Part shown: positions 4,571 through 16,637 of the stretch, piece after piece | Layout: every line of letters begins with the position of its first letter | How positions within the stretch are numbered: the first letter of the stretch is position 1 | Assembly: GCA_017403265.1 (NCBI GenBank) | Contig: JAFQOJ010000058.1 | Location: 1-44,630 of the forward strand | Length of the DNA stretch: 44,630 nt | Origin: Clostridia bacterium | GTDB taxonomy: Bacteria > Bacillota > Clostridia > Oscillospirales > Acutalibacteraceae | Reading direction: 5' to 3' | The notes under the pieces: model-generated | Told to the model about the DNA's origin: nothing | Database searches by the model: none | Seen by the model: the letters and a program-made list of their open reading frames with translations, nothing else | Made by a program: the position numbers and the translations under genes

Positions 4571-4990
4571 TTAGGTTATTAAAATATTATCAATCAACTT
4601 GACTTTGAAAATAATCTCCCATAAGGCTTTGTTGCCATTATAGCGACCTTTATTTTCAATGACAGTAATGTGCGTAGATGTTTTGTAACCGTCACTTAAA
4701 GTGACCGAGGCCGAACCGTAGCCGATATCATTCCATTCGTCAATTTCGGTGACGGTGGCATTTACTTTGATTGTTTCTGTAGTATCAAGCGGAACTGTCC
4801 ATTCTTCACCGTCGGCAATTGTCCTACCGTTACAGGTGTAACTCTTTTTCCAGTCATTACCTACCGAATGGTTATAGATTAATTTAGCTACAATAGAAAC
4901 TTCGTATACAGCGTGAGTATAATTTCTTTGGCAGCTGGAAAAAGAGATCAGTGTCGCAACCATACACAGAAACGCAATGCTTTTTCGCAT
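4571..4990 (-). CDS. Small predicted lipoprotein of unknown function
   Basis: 139 residues. A signal peptide (MRKSIAFLCMVATLISF) ends in the lipobox FSSC at residue 20, so the mature protein should be membrane-anchored outside the cell. The rest alternates beta-strand-like segments (AVYEVSIVAKLIY, TIKVNATVTEID, SASVTLSDGYKTST, ALWEIIFKVKLID), suggesting a small beta-sandwich. I do not recognise the family. GAGGTG precedes the ATG. The gene sits alone downstream of a structured leader RNA whose terminator ends about 16 bases before the start codon, so its expression is probably set by antitermination. Confidence 0.75.
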   Translation of the reverse strand: MRKSIAFLCMVATLISFSSCQRNYTHAVYEVSIVAKLIYNHSVGNDWKKSYTCNGRTIADGEEWTVPLDTTETIKVNATVTEIDEWNDIGYGSASVTLSDGYKTSTHITVIENKGRYNGNKALWEIIFKVKLIDNILIT

Positions 4991-5005: not shown

Positions 5006-5162
5006 TAAAAAAGCACACCCCGAAGAGTGTGCCGAAAAAGTGTCTCCTCGGTATAGTTGCGACACCAACCGAATCTTTCCAACGAAAAGGGAAGAGGAAA
5101 ACACCTTTTACTAAGGTATTATCCCTTTCGTTGAAAAACTTATTCAATTGGTGTCGCAAGAG
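5006..5162 (-). promoter_or_regulatory. Structured leader RNA with terminator/antiterminator, copy 1
   Basis: Untranslated leader of the lipoprotein gene. Read on the minus strand: a 12 bp closing helix (5159-5148 with 5068-5057, perfect, TTGCGACACCAA); an inner helix CAACGAAAGGGA with TCCCTTTTCGTTG; an apical hairpin AAUACCUU..AAGGUGUU (5120-5100); then CCGAGGAG, which can pair either with CUUUUUCGG just downstream or, over 8 bp, with CUCUUCGG inside the terminator (stem about 5031-5012, then U6). It contains no ATG. The same architecture and conserved blocks recur at 11963-12120. The family is not recognised. This entry also covers most of the 323 bases without a larger gene between 4991 and 5313; the rest is the promoter and an upstream terminator. 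Confidence 0.8.
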
Positions 5163-5163
5163 T

Positions 5164-5192
5164 ATTTTATCATACTTTACAGGAAATGTAAA
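5164..5192 (-). promoter_or_regulatory. Sigma-A-like promoter of leader RNA copy 1
   Basis: On the minus strand TTTACA (5192-5187), 17-base spacer, TAAAAT (5169-5164). The start falls about 7 bases later, at the first bases of the closing helix of the leader RNA. Confidence 0.78.
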
Positions 5193-11451: not shown

Positions 11452-11508
11452 ATGATGAAAACTTATACTTATTGGATGTCATATTTGTTGCCCAAAAAAG
11501 TATTTTAA
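11452..11508 (+). CDS. 18-residue leader peptide of an attenuator
   Basis: Short frame MMKTYTYWMSYLLPKKVF preceded by a perfect AAGGAGG 10 bases upstream, a stronger site than most genes here have. Its stop codon lies in the 3' arm of a 9 bp hairpin (11496-11504 / 11507-11515), and two terminator-like hairpins follow at 11528-11552 and 11583-11606 before the XRE gene. That layout is typical of ribosome-mediated attenuation, as for drug-resistance and amino-acid operons. The peptide has three Tyr and one Trp. Which signal would stall the ribosome cannot be read from sequence. Confidence 0.7.
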   Translation: MMKTYTYWMSYLLPKKVF

Positions 11509-11515
11509 TACTTTT
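11496..11515 (+). promoter_or_regulatory. Hairpin at the end of the leader peptide
   Basis: AAAAGTATT (11496-11504) / AATACTTTT (11507-11515), two-base loop. It contains the leader stop codon, so a ribosome finishing the peptide would melt it. Confidence 0.6.
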
Positions 11516-11527
11516 AGGAGCTTTATG

Positions 11528-11552
11528 CACATCCGAAACGGGTGTGTTTTTT
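11528..11552 (+). terminator. Attenuator terminator 1
   Basis: CACATCCG (11528-11535) / CGGGTGTG (11539-11546), loop AAA, then six T. It lies 19 bases after the leader-peptide stop. Confidence 0.78.
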
Positions 11553-11606: not shown

Positions 11607-11661
11607 GGTTTTTAGGCACCCCCGAATATAATTGCACTTTAACGAAAGAGGTATTACGGCA

Positions 11662-11886
11662 ATGGGTCCGGTTTATGAGATTAAGATTTCAGATAAGATT
11701 AAAGAATATAGAAAAACGCACAAGCTGTCACAAGCAGCATTTGGTAAAAGCCTTGGTGTTTCTGCACAGGCGGTTTGTAAATGGGAGCAGGAGCTATGTT
11801 ATCCCGACATCACTTTTTTGCCACAGTTAGCAGAAATTTTGGAATGTAGGGTGGAAGATTTTTTTGAATCGGGTATAAAAATATAG
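11662..11886 (+). CDS. XRE-family helix-turn-helix regulator
   Basis: 74-residue DNA-binding protein of the Cro/CI (XRE) family: IKEYRKTHKLSQAAFGKSLGVSAQAVCKWEQELCYPDITFLPQLAEILECRVEDFF is a complete HTH_3 domain filling almost the whole chain, with a short hydrophobic end. The start is the ATG at 11662 behind AAAGAGG; an in-frame ATG at 11632 lacks a binding site. It lies between a leader-peptide attenuator and the ABC exporter pair and has the same orientation, so it may regulate the exporters, though a strong promoter of their own intervenes at 11930. Confidence 0.85.
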   Translation: MGPVYEIKISDKIKEYRKTHKLSQAAFGKSLGVSAQAVCKWEQELCYPDITFLPQLAEILECRVEDFFESGIKI

Positions 11887-11929: not shown

Positions 11930-11958
11930 TTGACTGTTTTAAATGTTTATGGTATAAT
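11930..11958 (+). promoter_or_regulatory. Sigma-A promoter of leader RNA copy 2 and the ABC exporter operon
   Basis: TTGACT (11930-11935), 17-base spacer, consensus TATAAT (11953-11958). The start is at about 11965, at the beginning of the closing helix of the leader RNA, exactly as in copy 1. Confidence 0.85.
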
Positions 11959-11962
11959 TTAC

Positions 11963-12120
11963 TTGCTACACAAACTGCATATTTATTCACAACACGGGAA
12001 AATACCTTTTGTAAAAGGTGTTGCCCTTATTAACTCATACCGTGTTGTAGGAGCGTTTGTGTAGCAACAACGAAGGGAACGCTTTTTCGGTGTGTTCTCT
12101 TTGTGGGAGCACACTTTTTT
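11963..12120 (+). promoter_or_regulatory. Structured leader RNA with terminator/antiterminator, copy 2
   Basis: Untranslated leader of the ABC exporter operon, homologous to the minus-strand element at 5006-5162. Closing helix TTGCTACACAAAC (11963-11975) / GTTTGTGTAGCAA (12055-12067); inner helix ACAACACGG (11989-11997) / CCGTGTTGT (12040-12048); conserved apical hairpin AAUACCUU..AAGGUGUU (12001-12022). Then ACGAAGGGAAC (12070-12080) can pair over 11 bp with GUUCUCUUUGU (12094-12104) in the terminator, or locally with CUUUUUCG. Terminator stem 12090-12099 / 12105-12114 plus U6. No ATG precedes the terminator. Family not recognised; no T-box sequence or known aptamer core was found by eye. 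Confidence 0.82.
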
Positions 12121-12136
12121 ATTTTTGGAGGTCCAA

Positions 12137-13972
12137 ATGAAAGGAAAAACTAAAAAGGAAAAAAAGGAAAAGCTGAGCTTTAAAAAGACAGTTTCAAATA
12201 ACCTTTTTGCTATAAAGGCTATTTGGCGTTCTTCACCAAGCTATATGCTGGTTTATTTTGGTTCATCTTTTGTTTATGGAATACTTGGTTTTTTAAGTAA
12301 TACATACCTTTTGCGAAAAATTGTAAATGATGCCACAAGCGGTAAAAGTATTGACGGTGTAATACAGTATGTTATTCTTATTACTGCACTGAATATTATT
12401 ACAGGTGTAGCGCTCAGGTGGTTTTGGAATGTTATGTCACCGCCAAGGCAACGAAAAATTGCGGCAGACATTGAAAAAATGCTGTTTAGACAGGCAGCAC
12501 GCGTTGAGCTTGCTTGCTATGAAACACCGTCGTTTTATGATAAATATGTGCGTGCTATGGATGAAGCATATAATCGAATGATAAGTGTTATGCGCTCGTT
12601 TGATGGTTTGATTTATAAAGCAATTGCACTTACCGCTAACTCGATGTTATTGTTTATAATAGACCCGTGGCTTATTGTGTTTGGTTTGTTTCCGCTGTTA
12701 CTTGGGTTTTTCAAAAGACTTCAAAATATTGAACGCCACGCGTACCAAGTCGATTTTAAACCCATAAAGCGTAGGGAAGACTATGTTCGCCGTACTTTTT
12801 ATTTAGGTGAATACGCTAAAGAGATGCGTATAGGCGGTATGTATGTTCAAATGCTATCCGACTTACGTGATACATACAAGGATTATATGGTTATTCTTCG
12901 CAAGCACGGTGTTAAATGCTTTCTTTATTCCTATATACAAAAGGTGGGTTTAGAAGTATTTACCGTTTTGGGTGCTACCCTTTATGCCGTATGGCGCATA
13001 ATGGTAGACGGCGGTATGCAGGTGGGCGACGGTATAGTGGTTTTAAGCTCTATCGGTTCAATTTCTTATGCACTGAGCAACTTAATACAAAATGTTGCCG
13101 AATTTGGCGAGCACGCTTTATTCTTGGAAGATGTACGCTATTTTCTTGATTACACACCTAAAATACTTGACGGGGAGCATAAACTGCCTGAAAGTCCTGA
13201 TGAATTAGAAGTTAAAAATCTTTCTTTTAGATATGAAGGAAGCGAAAGCGATACTTTAAAAAATATAAGCTTTAGTTTGAAAAAGGGCGAACGAATTGCA
13301 CTTGTGGGCAGTAACGGCTCAGGTAAAACCACCTTGGTAAAACTGCTTTTAAGGCTATACGACCCAATAAACGGTGAAATTAATCTTAACGGCAACAATA
13401 TTAAAAATTTTAAAATTGACGAATACCGTGACACCTTTAGTACTGTTTTTCAAGATTTTAAAATGTTGTCATTATCGGTTAAGGATAACGTTTTATTAAG
13501 AGAAGGTAAGCAAGGTGATACCGAGCTTGTACTGAACGCTTTAAAGGAAAGCGGAGTTTATGAAAAAATACAAACCTTAGATAATGGACTTGATGCTATT
13601 TTAACCCGCGAGTTTGATGATAAGGGCGTTAATTTATCGGTTGGAGAGCAGCAAAAATTGTCCTTAGCGCGTGTTTTTGCAACCGATACTCCATTTGTTA
13701 TTCTTGATGAGCCCTCAAGCGCACTTGACCCGATTGCCGAATATAAAATGTTTGAAAATATGATGCGCGCAACTGTTGGCAGAAGTGTTATATTTATATC
13801 CCACAGGCTTTCTTCGGCAGTTTTGGCTGATAAGGTTTTGCTTATGGAAAATGGAGAAATTGCCGAATGTGGAACCCATACCGAGCTTATGGAAAAGAAC
13901 GGTAAATATGCCGCTATGTTCCGCCGACAAGCAGAAAATTATTTAGGAAACGAGGTGCAGGGTAATGAATAA
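12137..13972 (+). CDS. ABC exporter half-transporter, subunit 1 (permease-ATPase fusion)
   Basis: 611-residue half-transporter: a transmembrane domain with about six helices (about 35-330) and a C-terminal nucleotide-binding domain with Walker A GSNGSGKTTLVKLL (about 397), signature LSVGEQQKLSLARV (about 500), Walker B FVILDEPSSALDP and H-loop ISHRLSS. The signature reads LSVGE instead of LSGGQ/E, a departure at the third position that its partner does not share. The start is the ATG at 12137 behind GGAGG; the upstream ATG at 12092 lies inside the leader terminator. The next gene overlaps by 8 bases, so the two should form a heterodimeric exporter of peptide, lipid or drug. The substrate is unknown. 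Confidence 0.92.
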   Translation: MKGKTKKEKKEKLSFKKTVSNNLFAIKAIWRSSPSYMLVYFGSSFVYGILGFLSNTYLLRKIVNDATSGKSIDGVIQYVILITALNIITGVALRWFWNVMSPPRQRKIAADIEKMLFRQAARVELACYETPSFYDKYVRAMDEAYNRMISVMRSFDGLIYKAIALTANSMLLFIIDPWLIVFGLFPLLLGFFKRLQNIERHAYQVDFKPIKRREDYVRRTFYLGEYAKEMRIGGMYVQMLSDLRDTYKDYMVILRKHGVKCFLYSYIQKVGLEVFTVLGATLYAVWRIMVDGGMQVGDGIVVLSSIGSISYALSNLIQNVAEFGEHALFLEDVRYFLDYTPKILDGEHKLPESPDELEVKNLSFRYEGSESDTLKNISFSLKKGERIALVGSNGSGKTTLVKLLLRLYDPINGEINLNGNNIKNFKIDEYRDTFSTVFQDFKMLSLSVKDNVLLREGKQGDTELVLNALKESGVYEKIQTLDNGLDAILTREFDDKGVNLSVGEQQKLSLARVFATDTPFVILDEPSSALDPIAEYKMFENMMRATVGRSVIFISHRLSSAVLADKVLLMENGEIAECGTHTELMEKNGKYAAMFRRQAENYLGNEVQGNE

Positions 13973-15839
13973 CAGACCAAAGCAAAAGATTTCCTCAATC
14001 CTAAAAAATAATTTTTATATGCTTAAAATTGTTGCAAAGTATATACCTGCATACTTTATATTGCGAATGATACACGGCGCTTTATACGGCGTTTTGGACT
14101 TTTCGGCAACGCTGTTTAGTTATCATTTGCTAAGGCAAGTAAGTGATGTAGGTGATTTTGGTAATGCGGTATTAGTAATAGGTCTTATGGCGGCATTTTA
14201 CCTTAGCTTTTATCTTTTCGATAATTGGTTTAGGGAGCTGCACGACCCCGCGCAAAAGCAAAAACTGCATTTAAGAATGCATAAGGACCTTTTTGAAAAA
14301 GCGCTGTCTTTAGACCTTGCGTGCTTTGATGACCCCGAGTTTTATAATGACTTTGTGTGGGCTATGAACGAATCGGACACTCGTGCAATAGCAGTGCTTG
14401 ACAGCACTTCGCAAATGACACATAAAATTGTTGGCGCATTTTCGATTTTATCCTTGTTATTTACTATTGAACCCTTAGTAGCGGTGATATTAATTATATC
14501 TTCGCTGGTTACAATGTTTTGTAATATACAGGGTAACAAGGTTAATTTCCGTCATAGAAAAGAAGCAAATTCGCTTTGGCGCAAAAAGGATTACATAAAC
14601 CGCGTGTACCATCTTACTGATTATTCTAAAGAGCTTAGAATAGGTAAGGCAGATAACCTTCTTATGAAGGAGTACGACGAAAATAACGAAAAAATTATTG
14701 AAGCCGATGTAAGATACGGTAAAAAGTATTTTGTATGGTGGGGTCTTGGCTGGGAGTTGCTTGGTGAAATAACCCATTTTGCAGTACTGATTTATATGGT
14801 TTTTAGCCTTAAAAACGGGACTTCGCAAATAGGTGCATTTGCTGCAGCGGTAGGTGTTATTTGGAAAATCAGATGGACACTTGCAAGTCTTTCAGATGTT
14901 ATTTCTAAGTTTGTTGAGCATTCACTCTTTATAGAGAAATACCGCGAGTTTATGCGTTTTGTGCCACAGATTAAGGATGGCGAAACAGAGCTTCCCGAAT
15001 TCCAGAGTCTTGAATTTAAAAATGTAAGCTTTTCTTATGAGTTTGCGGCTCATCCAAAGTATAAGTATCACGATAAAGATTATGAGCCGCCTAAAGCAGA
15101 AGACGGTAAGAATGCTCTTAAAAATGTTAATCTTAAATTAACGGCAGGGGATAAGATAGCCATTGTGGGTTATAACGGTGCTGGTAAGACTACCCTTATT
15201 AAGCTTATGATGCGACTTTATGACCCGACCGAAGGTGAAATTCTTTACAACGGGGTTAATATTAAAACTTATGACCCCGTAGCCTACAGAGATAAAATTG
15301 GTACTGTTTTTCAGGATTATAAGATATTTGCAACCACTGTTGCGCAGAATGTTAAAAACGGTGTTTATGATGAAAATGCCGATAAGGATGATGTACTAAA
15401 GGCGCTTGACAGTGCCGATTTCACCGAAAAGCTTGCTACATTAAAAGACGGTATCAACACACACTTAACCCGCGAATTTAATGATGAAGGCACCAATCTT
15501 TCGGGCGGTGAAGCGCAAAAGGTTGCAATAGCGCGAGTTTTTGCTACCGATTATCCAATAGTAATTATGGATGAGCCTTCAAGCGCGCTTGACCCAATGG
15601 CAGAGTATAATTTAAACCGCTCGGTGCTAAACAATACGCAGAATAAAACGGTAGTATTTATTTCTCACCGTCTTTCTACCACCCGTATTGCCGATAAGAT
15701 TTATATGTTTTCGGGCGGTGAGCTTATAGAAGAAGGTTCTCACCAAGAATTATTAAACTTAAACGGTAAATATGCTGAAATGTTTTATTTGCAAGCAGAA
15801 AAATATGAGAGAGATTACAGAACAAGCCAAAGTCCGTAA
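13965..15839 (+). CDS. ABC exporter half-transporter, subunit 2
   Basis: 624-residue partner of the preceding gene: transmembrane domain (about 20-320), then an ATPase domain with Walker A GYNGAGKTTLIKLMMRLYDP (about 402), canonical signature LSGGEAQKVAIARV (about 512), Walker B IVIMDEPSSALDP and ISHRLSTT. A charged insertion of about 20 residues (HPKYKYHDKDYEPPKAEDG, near 363) sits between the first strands of the ATPase domain. GAGGTG precedes the ATG, which overlaps the end of the partner by 8 bases. A 15 bp terminator follows within 20 bases. Confidence 0.92.
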   Translation: MNNRPKQKISSILKNNFYMLKIVAKYIPAYFILRMIHGALYGVLDFSATLFSYHLLRQVSDVGDFGNAVLVIGLMAAFYLSFYLFDNWFRELHDPAQKQKLHLRMHKDLFEKALSLDLACFDDPEFYNDFVWAMNESDTRAIAVLDSTSQMTHKIVGAFSILSLLFTIEPLVAVILIISSLVTMFCNIQGNKVNFRHRKEANSLWRKKDYINRVYHLTDYSKELRIGKADNLLMKEYDENNEKIIEADVRYGKKYFVWWGLGWELLGEITHFAVLIYMVFSLKNGTSQIGAFAAAVGVIWKIRWTLASLSDVISKFVEHSLFIEKYREFMRFVPQIKDGETELPEFQSLEFKNVSFSYEFAAHPKYKYHDKDYEPPKAEDGKNALKNVNLKLTAGDKIAIVGYNGAGKTTLIKLMMRLYDPTEGEILYNGVNIKTYDPVAYRDKIGTVFQDYKIFATTVAQNVKNGVYDENADKDDVLKALDSADFTEKLATLKDGINTHLTREFNDEGTNLSGGEAQKVAIARVFATDYPIVIMDEPSSALDPMAEYNLNRSVLNNTQNKTVVFISHRLSTTRIADKIYMFSGGELIEEGSHQELLNLNGKYAEMFYLQAEKYERDYRTSQSP

Positions 15840-16187: not shown

Positions 16188-16637
16188 ATGAAGTGGTGTA
16201 CATTTATTGGTCATAAAGATTGTCCTGTTGAAATATTTGATAAACTGTATTATGAAATAGAAAAACTGATACTTAAAGAGAATGTAAGAATATTCTATGT
16301 GGGTACTAATGGGAATTTTGATAAAATGATTTATCAAGTTTTAGAAAAATTAGAATCGAAGTATAATATAACCATATATGTAGTATTGGCATATTTAAAT
16401 ATGAAAAAAAAGAATATATACTTTAATATTAACAAAACAATTTTTCCCAATACTTTAGAAAAAACACCATTAAGATATGCAATAAATAAGCGTAACGAAT
16501 ATATGATTAAAAAATCGGATTATATAATATGTTTTGTTAAAAACACTTTCTCAAATAGTTACAATTATCTTCAAGTTGCTATGAAAAATAATTTAGAAAT
16601 TATAAATTTGGGTAGCTATAAATCAAATGAAAGTTAA
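16188..16637 (+). CDS. SLOG-superfamily (YpsA/DUF1273-like) protein
   Basis: 149-residue Rossmann-like protein. The start MKWCTFIGHKDCP and the strand-turn RIFYVGTNGNFDKMIYQVL correspond to the two nucleotide-binding motifs of the SLOG/YpsA class; AINKRNEYMIKKSDYIICFV is the conserved C-terminal strand-helix region. The second motif has GTNGNFD where many members read GGAxGFD. Such proteins are thought to bind nucleotides or nucleotide-derived signals; exact function unknown. The gene is visibly more A+T-rich than its neighbours (many AAA, ATA and AAT codons). GGTGAT precedes the ATG. With the divergent XRE repressor and operators it forms a self-contained two-gene unit. Confidence 0.75.
   Translation: MKWCTFIGHKDCPVEIFDKLYYEIEKLILKENVRIFYVGTNGNFDKMIYQVLEKLESKYNITIYVVLAYLNMKKKNIYFNINKTIFPNTLEKTPLRYAINKRNEYMIKKSDYIICFVKNTFSNSYNYLQVAMKNNLEIINLGSYKSNES

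Follow-up and report, generated by a model that had tools for sequence, protein, structure and literature searches.

An apparently uncatalogued family of putative attenuator RNAs with promoters in fixed register

A pair of ABC exporter genes in a Clostridia bacterium (Acutalibacteraceae; GenBank assembly GCA_017403265.1) is preceded by a structured element, and a similar element lies some 7 kb away, on the opposite strand, ahead of a different gene. What kind of RNA do these two elements encode, how might it act, and to what extent is it bound to the genes that follow it? The stretch of DNA that was analysed (hereafter 'the window') comprises the 44,630 nucleotides of contig JAFQOJ010000058.1; its two elements, 'copy 1' and 'copy 2', are laid out in Table 1. 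Each consists of a structured domain (helices P1 and P2 and the apical hairpin P3), a strand termed X, and an intrinsic terminator. The original prediction correctly placed a leader at copy 2, with a start at 11963; judging from the promoter, its first base is most likely 11965.

Table 1. Coordinates of the two leaders and of the genes behind them in the window
Feature	Position	Strand	Remarks
Copy 1, whole leader	5157-5007	-	upstream of small putative lipoprotein gene
Copy 1, promoter	5164..5192	-	-35 TTTACA 5192-5187, TG, -10 TAAAAT 5169-5164; +1 at 5157
Copy 1, structured domain (P1, P2, P3)	5059..5157	-	
Copy 1, strand X	5035..5058	-	AACTATACCGAGGAGACACTTTTT
Copy 1, intrinsic terminator	5007..5032	-	stem 5032-5013, U-tract 5012-5007
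Gene under copy 1	4571..4990	-	small putative lipoprotein (by eye), 139 aa
Copy 2, whole leader	11965-12120	+	upstream of two ABC exporter genes
Copy 2, promoter	11930..11958	+	-35 TTGACT 11930-11935, TG 11950-11951, -10 TATAAT 11953-11958, giving +1 at G11965; from sequence
Copy 2, structured domain (P1, P2, apical hairpin P3)	11965..12065	+	
Copy 2, P1	11965-11975 with 12055-12065	+	layout compared with the DNA
Copy 2, P2	11986-11996 with 12041-12052	+	
Copy 2, apical hairpin P3	11997-12008 with 12015-12026	+	
Copy 2, strand X	12066..12087	+	AACAACGAAGGGAACGCTTTTT; partners are the 3' side of P3 plus the junction after it (P4), or the 5' arm of the terminator (antiterminator)
Copy 2, intrinsic terminator	12090..12120	+	stem 12090-12114, U-tract 12115-12120 (U6)
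First gene under copy 2	12137..13972	+	one half of an ABC exporter (ABC_tran, 611 aa), with GGAGG at 12127-12131 and its start codon 16 nt past the U-tract
Second gene under copy 2	13965..15839	+	partner ABC exporter half, 624 aa

A short distance upstream of copy 2, at 11452-11550 (+), the window also holds a short open reading frame with a good Shine-Dalgarno (SD) site (MMKTYTYWMSYLLPKKVF) followed by a hairpin like that of an intrinsic terminator, both of which precede a small gene at 11632-11886 (an HTH regulator, by eye); this may be a separate leader-peptide attenuator.

Structure and distribution of the leader

Both leaders fold more stably than dinucleotide shuffles of their own strands, with z scores of -6.9 (copy 2) and -9.8 (copy 1) and with 0 of 200 shuffles equally stable in either case. 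A third copy was recognized by reading the DNA upstream of an ABC exporter orthologue (locus L013, from the metagenome-assembled genome of a Clostridia bacterium of roe-deer colon), and a fourth was found in a genome of the same family (G076, locus L030), ahead of a homologous lipoprotein gene. When these four copies were aligned by hand, 97.2% of 178 pair cells were standard, and both sides had changed in 28 of 46 pairs. Among 82 and 28 matches aligned by covariance model, pairing was found in 96.0% and 96.7% of cells, with both sides changed in 43 and 45 of the 46 pairs, and it dropped to 36-58% when the partners were slid by 1-3 columns as a control; the hand and model alignments were all fitted to the structure, and are biased towards it. 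The original prediction had described the two window copies as homologous leader RNAs, with compensatory changes of the sort expected under selection. That description is upheld: the helices it named are present, they covary in the wider alignments, and both copies fold below their shuffles. On this comparative evidence, P1, P2, P3 and the terminator are shown to be real helices. Several segments are also kept outside the main helices, namely GTAAAA (72 of 93 copies) and AATA within nucleotides 10-26 (69 of 93), and the P3 loop is GGUAAAA-like in 66 of 93.

The four copies were used to build a covariance model (R1), which, at E<=0.01, matched 125 of the 398 genomes sampled from the same family (117 of them at E<=1e-6) and 74 of 391 genomes of the class at E<=1e-6, the latter spread over 18 family labels; the window's own genome is included in both counts. 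In a phylum-wide draw of 299 genomes, which served as a negative control, the own genome was the only match at E<=1e-6. The model was calibrated briefly, which renders its E-values rough. The antisense strand of a long hairpin can obtain a score too, 36-38 bits in copy 1 and L040 with E down to 4e-7, so that matches near E 1e-6 must be taken with care; each of the 110 genome matches that entered the later counts has an E of at most 4.1e-10. The family is probably one of Clostridia.

The possibility, raised alongside the original prediction, that only two copies exist is contradicted both by these matches and by the own genome, where R1 finds seven copies (not counting one antisense and one weak match). 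Copies per genome are lower bounds, as 7 to 9 candidates were scored in each. When copy 2 was used as a plain blastn query against the own genome, it returned, besides itself, short matches only (best E 0.011), and copy 1 and the other five were detected by the covariance model only. An exact-pattern search of 150 family genomes matched three: the own genome (at two sites), G076 (a real leader) and G122 (where no leader structure was seen by eye), compared with one match for a reversed control pattern. Two of the own-genome copies (L067 1501-1714 and L068 1501-1709, on contigs C25 and C44) are longer variants, of 214 and 209 nt, that possess an extra inner domain and have in common an inner segment, GGATAATTGCG, absent from the short copies examined.

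Promoter register and the two pairings of strand X

Ahead of the leaders lies an extended -10 promoter in a fixed register, such that P1 starts at +1 in 78 of 93 nonredundant copies. By the criterion used (TG at -15/-14 plus T-12, A-11 and T-7), these 78 lie at shift 0, and at most 5 copies satisfy it at any other shift tested. The first transcribed base would be the first base of P1. For this analysis one A11 antisense match was dropped, as were 33 redundant sequences of 127, and one of the 94 nonredundant sequences was set aside for having too little upstream DNA, leaving 93; two A7 antisense matches are absent from the later counts. The register does not figure in the original prediction, and the same is true of P4, the tandem arrays and the phage copies described below.

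Strand X follows P1 and ends in a U-run, with CG directly after it in 77 of 93 copies, and the terminator comes next. Two pairings are available to it: one with the 3' strand of P3 and the junction behind (P4), and the other with the 5' arm of the terminator (the antiterminator). The 11-bp antiterminator that had been proposed for copy 2, ACGAAGGGAAC/GUUCUCUUUGU, is present and reaches slightly further than was described, with a pairing energy of -17.4 kcal/mol. Across 93 copies (one of 94 having been dropped because its P1 pairing was below 8 of 10), the mean energy of P4 was -16.9 kcal/mol with a copy's own X versus -12.5 (sd 0.33) with a swapped X, and that of the antiterminator was -16.2 versus -10.7 kcal/mol (sd 0.32), with 0 of 2000 permutations equalling the native pairing in either case, a result that kinship among the sequences can inflate. 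Confining the swaps to three sequence types brought the swapped means to -14.7 (P4) and -11.5 (terminator arm), still with 0 of 2000.

An earlier test of 108 copies gave averages of -17.1 kcal/mol for a copy's own X, -12.4 for the X of other copies and -9.4 for shuffled X. The native X ranked first among 40 swaps for only 8% of those copies, with a median of 6 swaps equal or better, indicating that much of the match between X and P3 is shared consensus. In the 36 that were examined of the 108 best duplexes, X was paired with the 3' strand of P3 and the junction behind it. The 3' half of X resembles the 5' strand of P3 when copies are compared by eye (for example, GCAUUUUUC and GCAUUUUUA in L050).

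In all 93 copies, P4 and the antiterminator have at least 4 bases of X in common (9.7 on average), and both pairings are sequence-specific. The original prediction of a terminator with a competing antiterminator is supported. At the level of sequence, the leaders bear both marks of a transcription attenuator, namely an intrinsic terminator ahead of the gene and an alternative pairing that cannot coexist with it. The two resulting states, P3 plus antiterminator (mean energies of -10.8, from 88 of 93 copies, and -16.2 kcal/mol) and P4 plus terminator (-16.9 and -13.9 kcal/mol), are near balance before any pseudoknot cost; P4 forms a pseudoknot across P1, and the energies given exclude its loop cost.

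Genes behind the leader, phage copies and tandem arrays

A start codon with an SD-like site is found 5-40 nt past the U-tract in 54 of 90 copies (four of 94 were too close to the end of the locus, and were left out), versus 153 of 1800 random positions (8.5%). For the remaining 36 of the 90 the rule used gives no nearby start, and some of these are upstream members of tandem arrays. One copy in the own genome (L064 1501-1656, minus strand) is followed by a second hairpin soon after and by no open reading frame start for approximately 198 nt, with promoter-like sequence in between; it may have decayed, or may serve as a free-standing RNA.

Arrays of two to four tandem units are found at L071, L072, L056, L094, L097 and L100. 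The array at L100 1829-2638 (-) consists of four tandem units of differing sequence ahead of a SLOG-like gene; a full promoter is found on three of them, and on the fourth a -10 box is seen where the fetched sequence ends.

Proteins encoded downstream were picked by the start-codon rule with additions by hand, and some of their frames may be wrong. The 82 that were scanned gave matches to 36 unrelated Pfam families, the commonest of which was found in 6 (SLOG YAcAr 6, SHOCT 5, BspA-type LRR 3, zinc ribbons 3, AMP-binding 2, ABC 2, MazE 2, and others); with PADLOC, 6 of the 82 had weak ShosA-like matches, and there were scattered matches of other kinds. The original prediction had suggested that both copies may answer one signal, perhaps an envelope-active compound or a small metabolite. 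A link of the signal with envelope-active compounds, or with the ABC exporter, is not supported: downstream genes are diverse, and the leader adjoins the exporter gene in only 1 of 17 orthologues with upstream sequence, that one (L013) being itself a member of the model. The SLOG gene likewise failed as a fixed partner, with the leader at 2 of 30 homologous loci returned, one of them in the own genome. The window itself encodes a SLOG-like protein of the YpsA family (16188-16637, plus strand; below the Pfam cut-off), ahead of which R1 finds no leader; elsewhere, SLOG proteins are among the commonest genes behind it.

The putative lipoprotein behind copy 1 has no Pfam or NCBIfam match. Among 250 family genomes, 7 hold its homologues, which occupy 8 places, and 6 of these places (window copy 1 included) carry the leader; one (L165) is without it, and the remaining place is at a contig edge. 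Two of the 6 (window copy 1 and G076) also belong to the covariance model. With 6 of 8 for the lipoprotein, 2 of 30 for SLOG and 1 of 17 for the exporter, the association of the leader varies with the gene, close in some cases and loose in others.

When viral contigs were scanned by pattern, 19 stretches were recovered; R1 matches 17 of them (E<=1.9e-9), and three of these leaders have the same sequence. In the two that were tested, the leader lies ahead of a PASTA-domain protein (L145) and a DUF4839 protein (L150). The L145 contig also matches endonuclease, exonuclease, terminase, portal and head-protease families, and a chromosomal copy, L074, likewise has a DUF4839 protein behind its leader. 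Three genes past the PASTA protein, L145 8805-11552 (-) encodes a 915 aa protein matching a PHROGs family labelled RNA-dependent RNA polymerase. No match was found among INPHARED phages (queried with two leader sequences) or PLSDB plasmids (queried with one).

Known systems, the proposed switch and its alternatives

In scans against Rfam 15, no family reached its gathering threshold on the leaders of the window or of 20 loci, and those of a further 20 loci gave no match at E<=0.01; with the limit raised to E<=10, copy 1 overlapped a pair of models for microRNA hairpins (E 0.52 and 7), far under their cut-offs and at the level of chance. The T-box, with its hallmarks of a Stem I specifier loop and a UGGN antiterminator bulge, was not matched by the leaders in these scans. 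Riboswitches are defined by direct binding of a specific small ligand. Those that act on transcription have a folded 5' domain followed by a strand whose partner is either a part of that domain or the terminator, and an intrinsic terminator. The leader would work like those that operate by strand displacement (such as the ZMP and Mn2+ riboswitches), with a 5' domain, a switching strand and an intrinsic terminator. Unlike them, it has no Rfam riboswitch match among the leaders scanned, it begins with P1 at +1 under a promoter in fixed register, its X resembles one strand of an internal hairpin, and its downstream genes share no evident pathway.

No description of the leader RNA was found in the literature that was searched (supplements and subscription papers lay outside the search). 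The SLH motif, a riboswitch candidate of which approximately 60% precede SLH-domain genes (PMC6429828), is likewise a candidate leader RNA, partly of Clostridia, that precedes genes for surface proteins and proteins of unknown function; an SLH domain is found here in 1 of 82 downstream proteins, though on a comparison of descriptions the two may yet be one and the same RNA. A catalogue from human microbiomes lists 3161 candidate structured RNAs, many of them upstream of genes and phage-linked (PMC8040213), and a member of the leader family could be among its unnamed candidates. The leaders appear to constitute an uncatalogued family of candidate promoter-locked attenuator RNAs in (probably) Clostridia and in their phages.

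The sequences make it likely that the leader is a cis-acting transcription attenuator in which X swaps partners, and that promoter, leader and terminator form a unit found across a large family. RNA polymerase would begin at the first base of P1; P3, P2 and P1 would fold during synthesis, with X emerging next. Using the junction after P3 as a toehold, X would then oust the P3 5' strand and form P4, whereupon the terminator would form and transcription would end ('OFF'). Were P3 held shut, X would be left free to pair with the 5' arm of the terminator, and transcription would enter the gene ('ON'). We infer, from sequence, that the two X pairings compete in the cell, that displacement follows this order, and that an effector would gate the switch by binding the P1-P2-P3 domain and stabilizing P3. 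The default would be OFF, since X encounters the side of P3 when the arm of the terminator has yet to be made. The downstream genes, having no evident common pathway, suggest no ligand. For a small molecule as effector the chances appear about even; a protein or RNA seems a weaker candidate, and the absence of any specific effector (with temperature, transcription rate or ions in its place) weaker again.

Several of the same observations might be read differently. A regulator protein that recognizes the P3 region and lets RNA polymerase pass (LoaP-, ANTAR- or BglG-like) would suit a single signal acting on many unrelated genes, phage genes included, and LoaP in particular acts through a leader hairpin and an intrinsic terminator (PMC12691694). 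Like the present leaders, those of LoaP (dfn) place a hairpin and an intrinsic terminator ahead of genes; however, LoaP antagonizes NusA on long operons, and its hairpin is described as small and of the UNCG type (PMC12691694), whereas the P3 loops are mostly GGUAAAA-like, and the evidence here points to a swap of RNA partners, often ahead of single genes. A protein that modifies polymerase would not, by itself, need two overlapping X pairings, and this explanation is judged unlikely, if still deserving of some weight. Considerably less probable is a stand-alone small RNA, a terminated transcript of approximately 155 nt with its 5' end locked in P1 that acts in trans, the downstream genes being incidental. 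Its own promoter and terminator do make a complete transcription unit, and the copies with no near start codon (L064 among them) and the tandem arrays fit such a role, but start codons are found close behind the U-tract far more often than at random positions, and a plain small-RNA terminator would not need the antiterminator pairing that is specifically kept.

The multiple dispersed copies with inverted repeat ends might also suggest a MITE-like mobile repeat, whose terminal inverted repeat has been read as P1; yet the copies have diverged strongly in sequence with their pairing kept, the promoter stays in fixed register, and the blastn search with copy 2 disclosed no second strong match in the own genome, so that such a repeat is very improbable. 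Leader-peptide attenuation is known for many antibiotic-resistance ABC proteins. An attenuator ahead of an ABC exporter, and an ATG in the P3 3' strand of some leaders, bring such ribosome-mediated control to mind; however, closed ATG reading frames of at least 8 codons are rarer in the leaders (38 of 93) than in their mononucleotide shuffles (61, sd 4.5), those with an SD-like site number 3 of 93 versus 6.9 in shuffles (the window copies not among them), and no conserved leader peptide was found in the 93 leaders when ATG starts and a simple SD rule were applied. This is the least credible of the alternatives, at the very edge of plausibility. An attenuator in which X swaps partners remains the preferred reading.

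A broader interpretation is offered tentatively, and is perhaps somewhat more apt to fail than to hold: that the leader represents a new class of RNA switch, abundant and responsive to a signal, which may be a riboswitch and would be carried among the accessory genes of Clostridia and their phages as a cassette locked to its promoter. One signal would then set genes of lysogenic conversion and of islands, with an internal hairpin invaded from a toehold by a near copy, located downstream, of one of its own strands. A cis-regulatory RNA that is found in 117 of 398 family genomes and 74 of 391 class genomes, in multiple copies in some, with no Rfam match, is unusual. The switch between P3, P4 and the antiterminator can be tested directly with compensatory mutants, and the promoter-locked start offers a defined system for the study of co-transcriptional strand exchange. 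With the family as a guide, many accessory genes of unknown role (those for lipoproteins, SLOG proteins, phage PASTA proteins and DUF4839 proteins) could be gathered under one putative signal.
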